Shown piece after piece: positions 4,349-9,942 of a stretch of DNA of 11,559 nucleotides. How positions within the stretch are numbered: position 1 is the first letter of the stretch; the number at the start of each line of letters is the position of its first letter. Made by a program: the position numbers and the translations under genes. The notes beneath the pieces are model-generated. The model made no database searches. It saw only the letters and a list, made by a program, of their open reading frames with translations, and had not been told where the DNA came from. Source of the DNA: an uncultured Bacillota bacterium (GTDB taxonomy: Bacteria; Bacillota_I; Bacilli_A; Erysipelotrichales; Erysipelotrichaceae). The DNA is taken from positions 1 through 11,559 of the forward strand of contig ONXX01000062.1 in NCBI GenBank assembly GCA_900321955.1, written 5' to 3'.

Positions 4349-4379
4349 CATGAAAACGCATGAAACAGTCGTTTTCGTG
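4349..4379 (+). promoter_or_regulatory. Leader hairpin upstream of mgtC
   Basis: CATGAAAACG (4349-4358) can pair with CGTTTTCGTG (4370-4379), giving 10 bp with one G-U and an 11-base loop. There is no T-tract after it, so it is not a terminator. It lies 22 bases before the AGGAGG of mgtC. It may act as an RNA structure in the leader or as a protein-binding inverted repeat. Confidence 0.4.
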
Positions 4380-4385
4380 AAATAA
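4350..4385 (+). CDS. Candidate 11-residue leader peptide before mgtC
   Basis: A short frame encodes MKTHETVVFVK and stops at 4383-4385. AGGA (4338-4341) sits 8 bases before its ATG, a plausible ribosome-binding site. The frame covers both arms of the leader hairpin, so a translating ribosome would prevent that hairpin from forming. Short leader frames control mgtC in Salmonella (mgtM, mgtP), but there is no sequence resemblance here. Frames this short also arise often by chance. Confidence 0.25.
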   Translation: MKTHETVVFVK

Positions 4386-4412
4386 TATAAGAAAATACAG
4401 CAGGAGGATGCA

Positions 4413-5094
4413 ATGAGTTTATTTCAATATGAATGGCTGCTCAGATTGGTGTGTTCGGTCACGGTCGGAACGCTGCAGATTGGTGTGTTCGGTCACGGTC
4501 GGAACGCTGATCGGTTATGAGCGCCATGTACGTTCCAAGGATGCGGGAATCCGCACGCATGCCATCGTGGCACTGGCCTCCTGTCTGATGATGCTGATAT
4601 CGCAATACGCCTTTCCCGATGCGGGAAAGTTCGACGCTTCCAGAGTGGCTGCCGGCGTCGTCAGCGGCATCGGTTTCCTGGGTGCCGGCCTGATCTTTGC
4701 CCACGATGGTTCGATCTACGGTCTGACGACAGCAGCCGGTGTCTGGGCGACTTCCGGTATCGGCATGGCCTTCGGCGCCGGGATGTATGCCCTTGGCACG
4801 GTCTGCGGCTTGCTGATGTACATCGTGGAAAATGTCTACCAGAAGATCTTCAGCTTCAATCCGCCGTATTCACTGATCAATGTCGCCTTCAAGATGGATC
4901 ACGAAGGAACGATATCCGATATCAATGAGGTTTTGCTGAAGCTTGGCTATAACCATTCGGAAAACAAGATCACTTCCAAGGAAAATTACTGGCAGGTGGA
5001 TACGATGATCCGTACGCGTAAAAATGTATCGCCGAAGCAGCTGAAAGATGAGCTGTCAGAGATACCGCATCTGATCGAAATCTGCATTATTTAG
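4413..5094 (+). CDS. MgtC/SapB-family membrane protein, frame broken by a 34-bp tandem duplication
   Basis: The true start is the ATG at 4413, five bases after a consensus AGGAGG (4402-4407). It reads MSLFQYEWLLRLVCSVTVGT, a typical MgtC first membrane helix. At 4442-4509 a 34-bp segment is present twice in tandem. The frame from 4413 therefore meets TGA at 4518 after 35 codons. The rest of MgtC continues in the +1 frame from within the second copy: IGYERH, AGIRTH, SRVAAGVVSGIGFLGAGLIF and YGLTTAAGVWATSGIG, then a C-terminal ACT-like domain from about NVAFKMDHEG. Without one copy the protein would be 215 residues, normal for the family. As sequenced, full-length product needs a +1 frameshift or initiation elsewhere. 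The ATG at 4429 is in the MgtC frame but has no ribosome-binding site and gives a nonsense N-terminus. TTG 4480 and GTG 4483 inside copy two would lose only about 11 residues. MgtC proteins act in low-magnesium/acid survival and modulate membrane energetics; the role here is unknown. It heads the exporter operon. Confidence 0.85.
4442..4509 (+). repeat. Exact 34-bp tandem direct repeat inside mgtC
   Basis: Copy 1 is 4442-4475 and copy 2 is 4476-4509, identical at all 34 positions. The match stops at both flanks (T versus G before, C versus A after), so the unit is exactly 34 bp. Because 34 = 3x11+1, each extra copy shifts the frame by one. One copy, or four, keeps MgtC in frame; two or three do not. 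The junction between copies creates CTGCAG (4473-4478). Confidence 0.97.
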
Positions 5095-5111: not shown

Positions 5112-5525
5112 ATGGAGAAACCGCTTTTCAGAGAAAAAAATATCAATCAGATCACTTCACCCGATGAGCTGAACGACTATCTCAAGGTCACCAACACTTC
5201 CGTCTGGACGATCTTGGTTGCCGTCATCCTGCTGTTGTCGGGACTTTTGGTGTGGGCGTCGATCGGTCATCTGGATACCTATGCTGAGGCAAATGTCATT
5301 GCCAAAGACAAGCAGTTACAGATCATCGTTGCCGATCAAAGGGCCAAGATGGTCAAGGACGGCATGACACTGAATATCGAAGGCGAAGAAGTCGTCATCG
5401 AAAATGTAAAGCTCGATGAGTACGGCCGTGCTTTGGCAACGGGCGAACTGGATATCAAAGACGGTGAGTATACAGGCAAGGTGGTCGTGGAAAGCATCCA
5501 TCCGATCAGCTTTCTGCTGAAATAA
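5112..5525 (+). CDS. Short HlyD-like membrane-fusion protein of an NHLM/NHLP-type exporter
   Basis: The 137 residues comprise a short cytosolic N-terminus (LFREKNINQITSPDELNDYL), one membrane segment at about 31-52 (VWTILVAVILLLSGLLVWAS), and about 85 extracytoplasmic residues. The outer part resembles only the two ends of HlyD-family adaptors: VADQRAKMVKDGMTLNIEGE and a final VVVESIHPISFLL strand. The long coiled-coil hairpin and most of the lipoyl domain are absent; full NHLM-type adaptors have roughly 400 residues. The compact form looks clean and complete, not like decay, and I believe similar mini-adaptors recur in gut Firmicutes, though I cannot check. It starts 17 bases after mgtC with an AAAGGGGA site and ends 4 bases before the C39 ABC gene. 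It probably anchors or gates the two ABC proteins in a single-membrane cell. Confidence 0.75.
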   Translation: MEKPLFREKNINQITSPDELNDYLKVTNTSVWTILVAVILLLSGLLVWASIGHLDTYAEANVIAKDKQLQIIVADQRAKMVKDGMTLNIEGEEVVIENVKLDEYGRALATGELDIKDGEYTGKVVVESIHPISFLLK

Positions 5526-5529
5526 ATTT

Positions 5530-7710
5530 ATGAAGAAAAAAGTCAAAGAACCGGTAAAAAAGGGAGGAATTGCCAAGGTACCTGTCATCATTCAGATGGA
5601 AGCACTGGAATGTGGTGCGACCTCTTTGGCAATGATCCTGGCCTATTATGACAAATGGGTACCGCCGGAGCAGGTCCGTGTCGACTGCGGCGTTTCGCGT
5701 GACGGTTCCAATGCCAAGAACGTCCTTTTAGCTGCCCGCAATTACGGCCTGGATGCCAAGGGCTACCGTTTTGAACCGGAAAGCTTAAAGGAAGAAGGCA
5801 TTTTCCCTTGTATCATTCACTGGAATTTCAATCACTTCGTCGTCTGCGACGGTTTTAAAGGAAATAAAGCTTACCTCAACGACCCGGCCAGAGGTTTTGT
5901 CAAGGTGTCCATGGAGGAATTCGACAAGTCCTTCACCGGTATCGCTTTGCTGATGGAACCGACGGAAAATTTTGAACCGGGCGGCAAGCGCAAGAGTGTC
6001 CTGGAATTCGCGGCAACCAGGCTGAAGAACTCCAAGAATGCGATCATCTTTGTCGCTTTGACGACAGCGATCTCCTATCTGTTCTCGATCATCAATCCGG
6101 TCATGTCCCAGGTCTACCTGGATCGTCTTTTGAGCCGGCAGAATCCGGAATGGATCGTTCCGTTTATCACGTTGATGTCTCTTTTGGCGATCGTTCAGAT
6201 CATTGTCAGACTCTGCAGTACGGTCTTCTCTTTGAAGATCAACGGCAAGATGTCGATCGTCGGTTCGGCTTCCTACATGTGGAAGGTCATGCGCATGCCG
6301 ATGGAATTCTTCTCACAGCGCATGATGGGTGACATCATCCGCCGCAAATCCACCAACGAGACGATTGCCCAGACGTTAGTCAACGTTTTTGCGCCACTAG
6401 TTCTCAACGGCATCATGCTGATCTTCTACCTGGTGGTCATGATCCGTAAATCATTGGTCTTAACGGCCATCGGTGTGGCAACACTTTTACTGAACCTTCT
6501 GGTTTCCCGCTTCATCTCGGAAAAGCGCGTCAATGCGATGCGTATTCAGCTGAGAGATACGGGCAACCTGTCTTCGACCACGATGAATGGTATCTCGATG
6601 ATCGAGACCATCAAGGCATCCGGTGCTGAAAACGGCTTCTTCCGCAAGTGGGCGGGTTACCAGGCCAGCGTCAATGCCAAGAGCGTGGAATATTCAAGAA
6701 TGAATGCCTATCTGGGACTCATACCGTCGATCCTGTCGATGCTGGCAGATGATGCGGTATTGTTCTTAGGCGTCTTATATACGATGCGCGGTGAGTTCAC
6801 CCTCGGCAGCATGATGATGTTCCAGGGCGTGCTTTCTTCCTTCATGTCACCGGCCATGTCTTTGGTCAATGCCGGTCAGACGATACAGGAAATGCGCACC
6901 GACATGGAAAGGATCGAGGATGTCATGCAGTATCCGGAAGATCCGTATGTCAAGGAAGAACCGGTCAGGGAAGACGAAAGCTATGCCAAGCTTTCCGGCA
7001 ATATCGAATTGAAGAATGTGACCTTCGGTTATTCGAGACTGGCCGAACCTCTGATCGAAAACTTCTCCATGTCGATCAAGCCGGGTTCCCGTGTTGCCTT
7101 TGTCGGCTCCAGTGGCTGCGGCAAGTCAACACTGGCCAAGCTGATTTCCGGTCTTCATAAACCATGGAGCGGTGAGATCACTTTCGACGGCAAGCACATC
7201 GATGAGATCGACCGTTCGGTATTTACCGGATCACTGGCGGTCGTTGATCAGGACATCATCCTGTTTGAAGATACCATCGCTAACAACATCAAGATGTGGG
7301 ATGACACCATCGAGGATTTTGAAATGATCATGGCGGCATCCGATGCACAGATCCACGAAGACATCATGCTCAGAGAAAACGGTTACCAGTACAAGCTTAC
7401 CGAAGGCGGCAAGGACTTTTCCGGCGGCCAGAGACAGCGTCTGGAAATCGCCAGAGCCTTATGTCAGGATCCGACCATCATCATCATGGATGAAGCGACC
7501 TCGGCTTTGGATGCCAAGGTGGAATATGAAGTGGTCAAGAAGATCAAGGACCGCGGCATCACCTGCATCGTCATCGCCCACAGACTTTCAACGATCCGCG
7601 ACTGCGATGAGATCGTTGTCCTGGATCATGGTAAAGTCGTCGAACGCGGTACGCACGATGAACTGTATAAGAAGGGCGGCTATTATGCCGAACTTATTGC
7701 GAGTGAGTAG
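5530..7710 (+). CDS. Peptidase-containing ABC exporter (C39 domain; NHLM/NHLP subunit 1 type)
   Basis: This 726-residue protein cleaves leader peptides after a double-glycine-type site and exports the mature peptide. The N-terminal C39 cysteine peptidase (about 14-140) has the oxyanion Q22, catalytic C28 in ALECGATSLAM, H102 in FNHFVVCDGF and D118 in LNDPARG, so all catalytic positions are intact. A six-helix ABC membrane domain spans about 170-450. The ATPase domain (about 490-726) has Walker A GSSGCGKST (526-534), signature FSGGQ (630-634), Walker B IIIMDEATSALD (D654/E655) and switch H684. The start at 5530 has no clear ribosome-binding site, but the previous stop is only 4 bases upstream, suggesting translational coupling. 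The overall look, the short adaptor and the paired second ABC gene point to the NHLM/NHLP bacteriocin-export group. No precursor gene is visible in the window. Confidence 0.92.
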   Translation: MKKKVKEPVKKGGIAKVPVIIQMEALECGATSLAMILAYYDKWVPPEQVRVDCGVSRDGSNAKNVLLAARNYGLDAKGYRFEPESLKEEGIFPCIIHWNFNHFVVCDGFKGNKAYLNDPARGFVKVSMEEFDKSFTGIALLMEPTENFEPGGKRKSVLEFAATRLKNSKNAIIFVALTTAISYLFSIINPVMSQVYLDRLLSRQNPEWIVPFITLMSLLAIVQIIVRLCSTVFSLKINGKMSIVGSASYMWKVMRMPMEFFSQRMMGDIIRRKSTNETIAQTLVNVFAPLVLNGIMLIFYLVVMIRKSLVLTAIGVATLLLNLLVSRFISEKRVNAMRIQLRDTGNLSSTTMNGISMIETIKASGAENGFFRKWAGYQASVNAKSVEYSRMNAYLGLIPSILSMLADDAVLFLGVLYTMRGEFTLGSMMMFQGVLSSFMSPAMSLVNAGQTIQEMRTDMERIEDVMQYPEDPYVKEEPVREDESYAKLSGNIELKNVTFGYSRLAEPLIENFSMSIKPGSRVAFVGSSGCGKSTLAKLISGLHKPWSGEITFDGKHIDEIDRSVFTGSLAVVDQDIILFEDTIANNIKMWDDTIEDFEMIMAASDAQIHEDIMLRENGYQYKLTEGGKDFSGGQRQRLEIARALCQDPTIIIMDEATSALDAKVEYEVVKKIKDRGITCIVIAHRLSTIRDCDEIVVLDHGKVVERGTHDELYKKGGYYAELIASE

Positions 7711-7722
7711 AAAGGAGCTTTC

Positions 7723-9942
7723 ATGGGCTGGTTTGATGAGCAAATAAAAACGCGAAAACTATCGGATCAGGAAGTCGTTGAAGACTCCTTTATGAAACTG
7801 GCTTCCTCTGTCCTCGGCCACAAGGCGGGCATCAGGATCCAGTCGCAGCGCTACCTTTCCAAGGCGGCGATTGACGATATTTTAAAGTATTATCACAAAA
7901 AACCGATCGAGGTTACCGATGACATCACCGATTTCACCGATCGTCTCGAACATGCCTTGCGGCCGTATGGCATCATGTATCGTGTCATCCATCTGGAAAA
8001 GGGCTGGTACAGAGATTCCTTCGGTCCGATCCTGGCCTTCGACAAGGAAGATGGCCAGGCGATCACCCTGCTGCCGGACGTTTTGAGCGGCTATCGCTTC
8101 AACGACCTCAAGAGCGGCAAGAGCGAGAAGATCTCGGCGGCCAACGAAGGAAGATTCAAGGAAGAGGCCTTCTGCTTCTATCAGCCTCTGCCGTTAAAGA
8201 AGCTAAAGATCATTGACCTTCTCTTATATATGAAGGACTGCATCAAACCATCCGATGTGGTGATGATGTTTGTGATCTCTTTAGTGATGACGAGTATCGG
8301 TGTGCTGATGACCAGGATCACCAAGACCTTGACCGGTGCTGTTTTGCAAAGCGGCCAGATCAATGCCTTGCATGCGATCATGATCTTCATGATCTTTGCC
8401 AGCGTCTCCCAGAAACTGATGGGCATTGTCAATGCGCAGGTCAATTCCCGCATTACCATCAAGACTTCCCTGTCGGTTCAGGCAGCGGTCATGATGCGTG
8501 TGCTGACCTTGCCGGTATCCTTCTTCAGAAAGTATTCGTCCGGTGAACTGGCAAGCCGTTCGTCCAGTGTATCTTCTCTGTGTGATATGCTGCTGACGGG
8601 AATTTTCTCCGGCGGTTTAAGTTCGTTGACGTCTCTCTTATATATCGGACAGATCTTCAACTTTGCACCAAACCTGGTCATTCCGTCATTGCTGATCATC
8701 TTAATCACGGTGGCATCCAGCGTGGTGATCAGCTTGATCCAGGTCTCCTTATCCAAGAAGAGGATGGAACTGACGGCAAAGGAATCCGGTTTAAGCTATG
8801 CGCTCTTATCGGGCATCCAGAAGATCCGTGTGTCGGGCGGCGAAAAGAGAGCTTTTGCCAAGTGGGCAGATGTCTTTGCTCAGGAAGCGGCTTACGCCTA
8901 TGATCCGCCGGCTCTGGTCAAGTATTCCAGCGTCATTACGATGGCCATCTCTTTGATCGGTACGATCCGTCTCTATGCCCTGGCTTTTGAAGCGGGACTT
9001 GATCAGTCAACGTACTTCGCCTTCAATGCTGCTTATGGCATGGTCATGGGCGCCTTCTCCACGATGGCTGGTCTGGGACTCAATGTTGCTCAGATGAAGC
9101 CGATCCTGGATATGGCAGAACCGATCCTCAATGAGGTACCGGAAGCCGCTGAAGACAAGGAAGTGCTGTCCCGCATTTCCGGCAACATCGAAATGAGCCA
9201 TGTGTCTTTCCGTTACGAAGACAACATGCCGTATGTCATCGATGACCTGTCTCTCAGCATCAAGGCGGGTGACTATGTCGCCATCGTCGGCAAGACGGGC
9301 TGCGGAAAGTCCACTCTGATCCGTCTGCTGCTCGGATTTGAGAATCCGGAAAAGGGCGCCATCTACTACGACAAGAAGGATCTGCGCAAGATCGATCTGG
9401 TCTCCTTGCGTAAGAAGATCGGTACCGTCACCCAAAACGGTGACCTGTTTACCGGTGACATCTATTCCAACATTTCCATCTGTGCGCCGGGCCTTTCCAT
9501 GGAAGATGCCTGGAAGGCAGCCGAGATTGCCGGCATGGCGGAAGATATCAAGGCGATGCCGATGGGCATGTATACGATGATCACGGAAGGTGCCAGAGAC
9601 ATTTCCGGCGGTCAGAAGCAGCGTCTGATGATTGCCAGGGCGATTGCACCAAAACCGAGAGTCCTCATCTTTGATGAAGCGACTTCCGCTTTGGACAACA
9701 AGACCCAGAAACAAGTCTCGGAAGCTCTGGATAAGCTCAACTGTACGAGAATCGTCATTGCCCACCGTCTTTCAACGATCCGCCACTGTAATAGGATCCT
9801 GATCCTGGATAAAGGCAAGATCGTGGAAGAGGGCACTTACGACGAACTCATCGCCAAGAACGGCTTCTTCGCCGAACTGGTAGACAGACAGCGACTGGAC
9901 AAACCGGAAGAATTAAACGAAGAAAAGACAGAAAAAGAATAA
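7723..9942 (+). CDS. ABC exporter without active peptidase (NHLM/NHLP subunit 2 type)
   Basis: This 739-residue protein is the partner of the preceding transporter. Residues 1 to about 165 form a soluble N-terminal domain (motifs EKGWYRDSFGPILAF, ITLLPDVLSGYRFNDL) in the place where subunit 1 has C39. It has no catalytic CG motif, so it is not a protease; it may recognise leader peptides (inference). The membrane domain spans about 172-470. The ATPase domain (about 485-739) has Walker A GKTGCGKST (523-531), signature ISGGQ (627-631), Walker B VLIFDEATSALD (D651/E652) and switch H681. Both ATPases keep every core motif, so a heterodimer would have two competent sites. It follows subunit 1 by 12 bases with AAAGGAG (7711-7717) directly after that stop. 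The very charged tail (ELNEEKTEKE) ends just before a terminator. Confidence 0.92.
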   Translation: MGWFDEQIKTRKLSDQEVVEDSFMKLASSVLGHKAGIRIQSQRYLSKAAIDDILKYYHKKPIEVTDDITDFTDRLEHALRPYGIMYRVIHLEKGWYRDSFGPILAFDKEDGQAITLLPDVLSGYRFNDLKSGKSEKISAANEGRFKEEAFCFYQPLPLKKLKIIDLLLYMKDCIKPSDVVMMFVISLVMTSIGVLMTRITKTLTGAVLQSGQINALHAIMIFMIFASVSQKLMGIVNAQVNSRITIKTSLSVQAAVMMRVLTLPVSFFRKYSSGELASRSSSVSSLCDMLLTGIFSGGLSSLTSLLYIGQIFNFAPNLVIPSLLIILITVASSVVISLIQVSLSKKRMELTAKESGLSYALLSGIQKIRVSGGEKRAFAKWADVFAQEAAYAYDPPALVKYSSVITMAISLIGTIRLYALAFEAGLDQSTYFAFNAAYGMVMGAFSTMAGLGLNVAQMKPILDMAEPILNEVPEAAEDKEVLSRISGNIEMSHVSFRYEDNMPYVIDDLSLSIKAGDYVAIVGKTGCGKSTLIRLLLGFENPEKGAIYYDKKDLRKIDLVSLRKKIGTVTQNGDLFTGDIYSNISICAPGLSMEDAWKAAEIAGMAEDIKAMPMGMYTMITEGARDISGGQKQRLMIARAIAPKPRVLIFDEATSALDNKTQKQVSEALDKLNCTRIVIAHRLSTIRHCNRILILDKGKIVEEGTYDELIAKNGFFAELVDRQRLDKPEELNEEKTEKE

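Follow-up and report, generated by a model that had tools for sequence, protein, structure and literature searches.

An exact 34-base tandem duplication separates the Shine-Dalgarno-preceded start of an mgtC-family gene from its core on a contig of an uncultured Erysipelotrichaceae bacterium

An mgtC-family gene on contig ONXX01000062.1 of an uncultured Erysipelotrichaceae bacterium carries, close to its 5' end, a 34-base unit twice in direct succession. This raises the question of whether the second copy belongs to an ON/OFF switch, is an ordinary mutation or was produced by assembly, and whether MgtC can still be made from the two-copy form. The window, i.e., the whole stretch of DNA analysed (11,559 bases), encodes TetR, Spx, Lon, MgtC, a short HlyD-like protein and two NHLM-type ABC exporters. 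The features of mgtC, with the evidence for each, are:

4402..4407, + strand: AGGAGG, Shine-Dalgarno-like, 5 bases ahead of ATG 4413 (read from the sequence)
4413..4520, + strand: frame of the best start, 35 codons followed by TGA 4518-4520 (translation; start position kept in aligned relatives)
4429..5094, + strand: alternative 221-codon frame from ATG 4429, spanning both copies and the MgtC core (ORF, Pfam, AlphaFold)
4442..4475, + strand: first copy of the 34-base unit (TRF, repeat search, own scan)
4476..4509, + strand: second copy, identical to the first (TRF, repeat search, own scan)
4510..5094, + strand: undamaged MgtC tail, open to TAG 5092-5094 (ORF; identity to the homologue P0001)

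TRF reported the repeat at 4442-4509 with a period of 34, 2.0 copies, 100% matches and a score of 136, the highest of its seven rows in the window. An exact-repeat scan agreed (start 4442, unit 34, matching run of exactly 34 bases). When exact tandem units of 15-150 bases were scanned for, this repeat was the sole case in the window, and 112 loci (931,517 bases, some overlapping) contained one other, an 18-base unit in L021 within a GTCGGC-like low-complexity tract. A further 345,846 bases, from 20 loci of two related genomes, contained no exact tandem unit. Near-perfect repeats (unit 18-100 bases, match at least 88%) were less rare, being present in 13 of 132 loci, those in L019 and L107 apparently consisting of runs of one letter or N. 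The exact 34-base duplication thus exceeds chance.

Slippage between short repeats usually leaves flush microhomology. At the junction studied here no base matched beyond the 34, so that flush microhomology is absent and the repeat does not have the form of a microhomology-mediated tandem duplication. Promotion of the duplication by a hairpin was rejected, as the DNA folded no better than its shuffles (z 0.72); the start region as RNA likewise folded no better than shuffles (z -0.32).

The product of the 221-codon frame matched PF02308 (MgtC) at residues 18-140 with 123.5 bits against a cut-off of 31.4, which places the gene in the MgtC family, as the sequence-only reading had proposed. That reading had also seen the normal start thrown out of frame and the tail left intact, and both observations were reproduced: translation from 4413 ends at TGA 4518-4520 after 35 codons, because 34 is not a multiple of three, and the tail, whose frame differs from that of 4413, runs open to its stop. 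Compared with other PF02308 members, the full family core is encoded, whereas the start preceded by a Shine-Dalgarno-like site is severed from it by the duplication. The further step from loss of frame to an OFF state did not hold as stated, since the frame of ATG 4429 had been overlooked. MgtC is likely, not certainly, off, because this ATG opens 221 codons through the whole core. A restart of translation at ATG 4517, a codon that overlaps the stop, was rejected, as this start lies in the third frame and opens 23 codons that are not MgtC.

The two-copy allele might accordingly still make a working MgtC from ATG 4429, with an altered N-terminus and level and the gene not off. In addition to the open frame and the full Pfam core, the AlphaFold model of this product retains helix 4-34 (mean pLDDT 85.8), although with low confidence at its very beginning (block means of 54 for residues 1-10, 87 for residues 11-20 and 93 for residues 21-30). 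The core is kept from the equivalent of R11 onward, but F4, E7 and W8, which are invariant across 11 aligned homologues, are lost. Moreover, ATG 4429 is 21 bases away from AGGAGG, and the hydrophobicity of the first segment is reduced (best 17-residue Kyte-Doolittle mean 0.94 vs. 1.62 in P0001). On this evidence a working protein from ATG 4429 appears unlikely, and MgtC is probably strongly reduced or lost in the two-copy form.

The region ahead of the gene contains a promoter-like element:

4378..4387, + strand: TGAAATAATA, putative extended -10 (conservation in relatives)

Of the 10 aligned relative rows, 7 contain it exactly, L005 has it with one change, and L085 and L012 lack it; it is also kept at loci where mgtC has other neighbours. 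TGAAATAATA therefore looks like a promoter by virtue of its conservation, which carries the call because a consensus promoter scan gave no + strand site ahead of mgtC and did not flag it. Terminator-like structures were at chance level (2 vs. 1.2 in shuffles). Between the hairpin that follows lon and the start of mgtC, an 11-codon frame (4350-4385) lies behind an AGGAAAG-like site and contains a GAAAACG/CGTTTTC inverted repeat.

One-copy relatives of the gene, whose existence had been expected, were found both among catalogued proteins and among aligned loci. P0001, which is 98% identical over 93% of the 221-residue frame and stands for 175 member sequences, has one copy, and P0003 and P0056 read straight across the duplication site with one copy each. 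The first 21 residues of P0056 are those of the window's 4413 frame. The extra 34 bases were present in none of 10 aligned relative loci, in which the start is kept and which show no conserved repeat tract at the duplication site; these loci were chosen from the 112 fetched and represent nine genomes, L007 and L092 coming from the same one. Four peptides specific to the two-copy form occurred in none of the 120 homologues listed (of 4739 matches), these being clustered at 90% identity, so that two-copy members could hide inside the P0001 cluster. The spacing from R11 to E25-R26 was 13 residues in all 60 of these 120 homologues in which a pattern located both anchors. No catalogued protein of 24-77 residues shared sufficient words with the product of the 35-codon frame. 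Only the one-copy state was hence seen elsewhere, in the 90%-clustered homologues and the aligned loci, and by this comparison one copy is likely the ancestral state.

The search for closer relatives covered named genomes and the family of G001. An alignment scan of the named genomes yielded 80 loci, the best of them over most of the protein being 58% identical (L001), with partial stretches of up to 68% in L025 and L036; exact patterns found no relative in these genomes. Of 272 genomes of the family, 131 had an MgtC match (best full-length identity 58%), and the best Lon DNA match among these genomes was 79%. The source species itself was found neither among the named genomes nor among the 272. 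Viral contigs gave no match, and plasmids a single remote one covering 7% of the query. Closest among the named relatives are uncultured Erysipelotrichaceae MAGs, several of them from goat, buffalo or cattle gut, and the source bacterium is probably a gut commensal. None of the matches listed in the family search had internal stops. A decayed pseudogene was rejected, given the open tail, its near identity to P0001 and the lack of internal stops in the listed relatives.

These data are best accommodated by a recent, private duplication in mgtC with MgtC probably lost or strongly reduced, a reading to which we give about an even chance. It is favoured by the two perfect copies, the single copy in P0001, P0003 and P0056, the absence of the second copy from the aligned loci and the listed homologues, and the intact tail; the lack of internal stops among the listed family matches also speaks for it. 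According to this reading, an mgtC gene that is normal in every other respect would have acquired, recently and close to its 5' end, an exact 34-base tandem duplication private to one lineage of this uncultured bacterium. Ribosomes starting at 4413 would halt after 35 codons, and MgtC would be mostly or wholly lost, ATG 4429 perhaps yielding a little protein with an altered N-terminus. Like any tandem repeat, the perfect repeat might be lost again through slippage or recombination. We infer that the duplication is present in the cell, that it is recent and that expression is reduced.

An assembly artefact predicts the identical sequence, which counts against the private duplication and makes this alternative a serious one. 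The artefact would be a join of two contig ends that left their common 34-base overlap unmerged, the second copy then being absent from the cell. Exactly two perfect copies whose match extends over just one unit would be expected from such a join, yet they fit a recent non-homologous duplication equally well. The single copy in relatives and catalogued forms agrees with an artefact, and so do the indel forms that occur in metagenome contigs: 25 residues are missing in frame from P0003, and in P0056 a stretch corresponding to 56 bases of the window is missing, with a change of frame. Such indels may be real variants or result from poor assembly of mixed strains; we counted them against the private duplication as a possible hint of assembly trouble, or else of real variability, together with the absence of flush microhomology at the junction and of any like exact duplication in the other fetched loci. 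P0002, a partial catalogued form, begins about 45 bases past the repeat on its own contig, which hints weakly that assemblies break hereabouts. Against an artefact stand the lack of a second such duplication in the window and a literature search that found no report of assembler-made duplications. An artefact is thus a substantial possibility, and a real private mutation is favoured over it by a small margin.

The sequence-only reading had gone further and taken the repeat for a phase switch that would also be polar on the exporter genes behind mgtC. These genes are indeed present:

5112..5525, + strand: short HlyD-like protein, 137 aa (TIGR03794, 21.5 bits, far below the cut-off of 156.2)
5530..7710, + strand: NHLM-type peptidase/ABC exporter, ABC1 (TIGR03796, 926.7 bits, cut-off 853.3)
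7723..9942, + strand: NHLM-type ABC exporter, ABC2-like (TIGR03797, 687.8 bits, slightly under the cut-off of 709.4)

The TIGR03796 and TIGR03797 matches support exporter genes downstream of mgtC; the weak TIGR03794 match is confined to the first part of the HlyD-like protein. L001 and L131 each have a comparably short HlyD-like protein at the corresponding position. The order from TetR to ABC2 is shared with G118 (L131), in which Lon is 84%, ABC1 79% and the MgtC tail 53% identical, and the order from MgtC to ABC2 with G001 (L001). Among the 34 loci compared, 30 others had no Lon and no close exporter in the fetched flank, many of their contigs being cut, and L017 and L027 had ABC matches of only 29-30%. 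As far as these loci tell, the two nearest genomes share the gene arrangement, which is not conserved family-wide.

In an evolved switch, MgtC and, by putative polarity, the downstream exporter would be toggled as the 34-base unit is gained and lost. MgtC and with it an NHLM-type export operon would then change between two states in a fraction of the cells, a form of bet-hedging that concerns peptide export and the homeostasis of membrane or ions. The perfect tandem unit, the frame change and the intact tail would suit such a switch, and revertible frameshifting duplications are known from pneumococcal capsule genes (PMC4243769, PMC4022640). However, the mixture of one- and two-copy strains that a switch predicts did not appear: the two-copy form was missing from the listed homologues and the aligned loci, and no protein of the 35-codon frame was catalogued. 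The comparison with relatives showed neither recurrence nor copy-number variation nor a conserved unstable tract, and the exporter adjoins mgtC in only two of the genomes examined. We regard a two-state switch as very improbable.

Known systems place the repeat more precisely. In the capsule genes of pneumococcal serotypes 3, 8 and 37, spontaneous and reversible intragenic duplications were described (Waite et al., 2001, 2003, as cited in PMC4243769 and PMC4022640). The present repeat resembles these in being a perfect duplication within an open reading frame that puts the normal start out of frame, as there a spontaneous duplication within the ORF inactivates the gene; unlike in the pneumococcal case, for which reversion was reported, it concerns mgtC of an uncultured commensal and is known from one sequence. 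For inserts of up to nine bases, PMC4022640 puts the expected frequency of reversion at about 1e-5 or less. Reversion may be more frequent for a longer repeat than for such short inserts. In the agr phase variants of Staphylococcus aureus, a duplication plus inversion in agrC can restore the original sequence, whereas for a duplication in agrA PMC6686034 reports no revertants; a duplication need therefore not always revert. The likeness to the agr variants lies in a duplication-type change able to restore the original sequence, while gene and structure are different.

Simple-sequence-repeat phase variation is a mechanism in which the reading frame depends on how many copies of a tandem unit are present. 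The same dependence holds here, but there are two long units of 34 bases, and neither the window nor the 10 aligned loci have a multi-copy tract at the site. Among the matches listed in a literature search on MgtC with phase variation or slipped-strand events, only PMC3350482 names MgtC (two times), and nothing was found joining MgtC with Erysipelotrichaceae.

Any reversibility of the repeat would be no sign of selection for switching, because it is generic to any such duplication. The duplication is ordinary, and nothing that we found marks it as a maintained switch. Without a check of reads and of further strains, a perfect tandem duplication on a lone contig is weak evidence of phase variation, and a gene should be called off only once alternative starts have been sought. 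If the second copy is real, mgtC of this bacterium would provide another example of a spontaneous, potentially revertible intragenic duplication, in this case in an uncultured gut bacterium.
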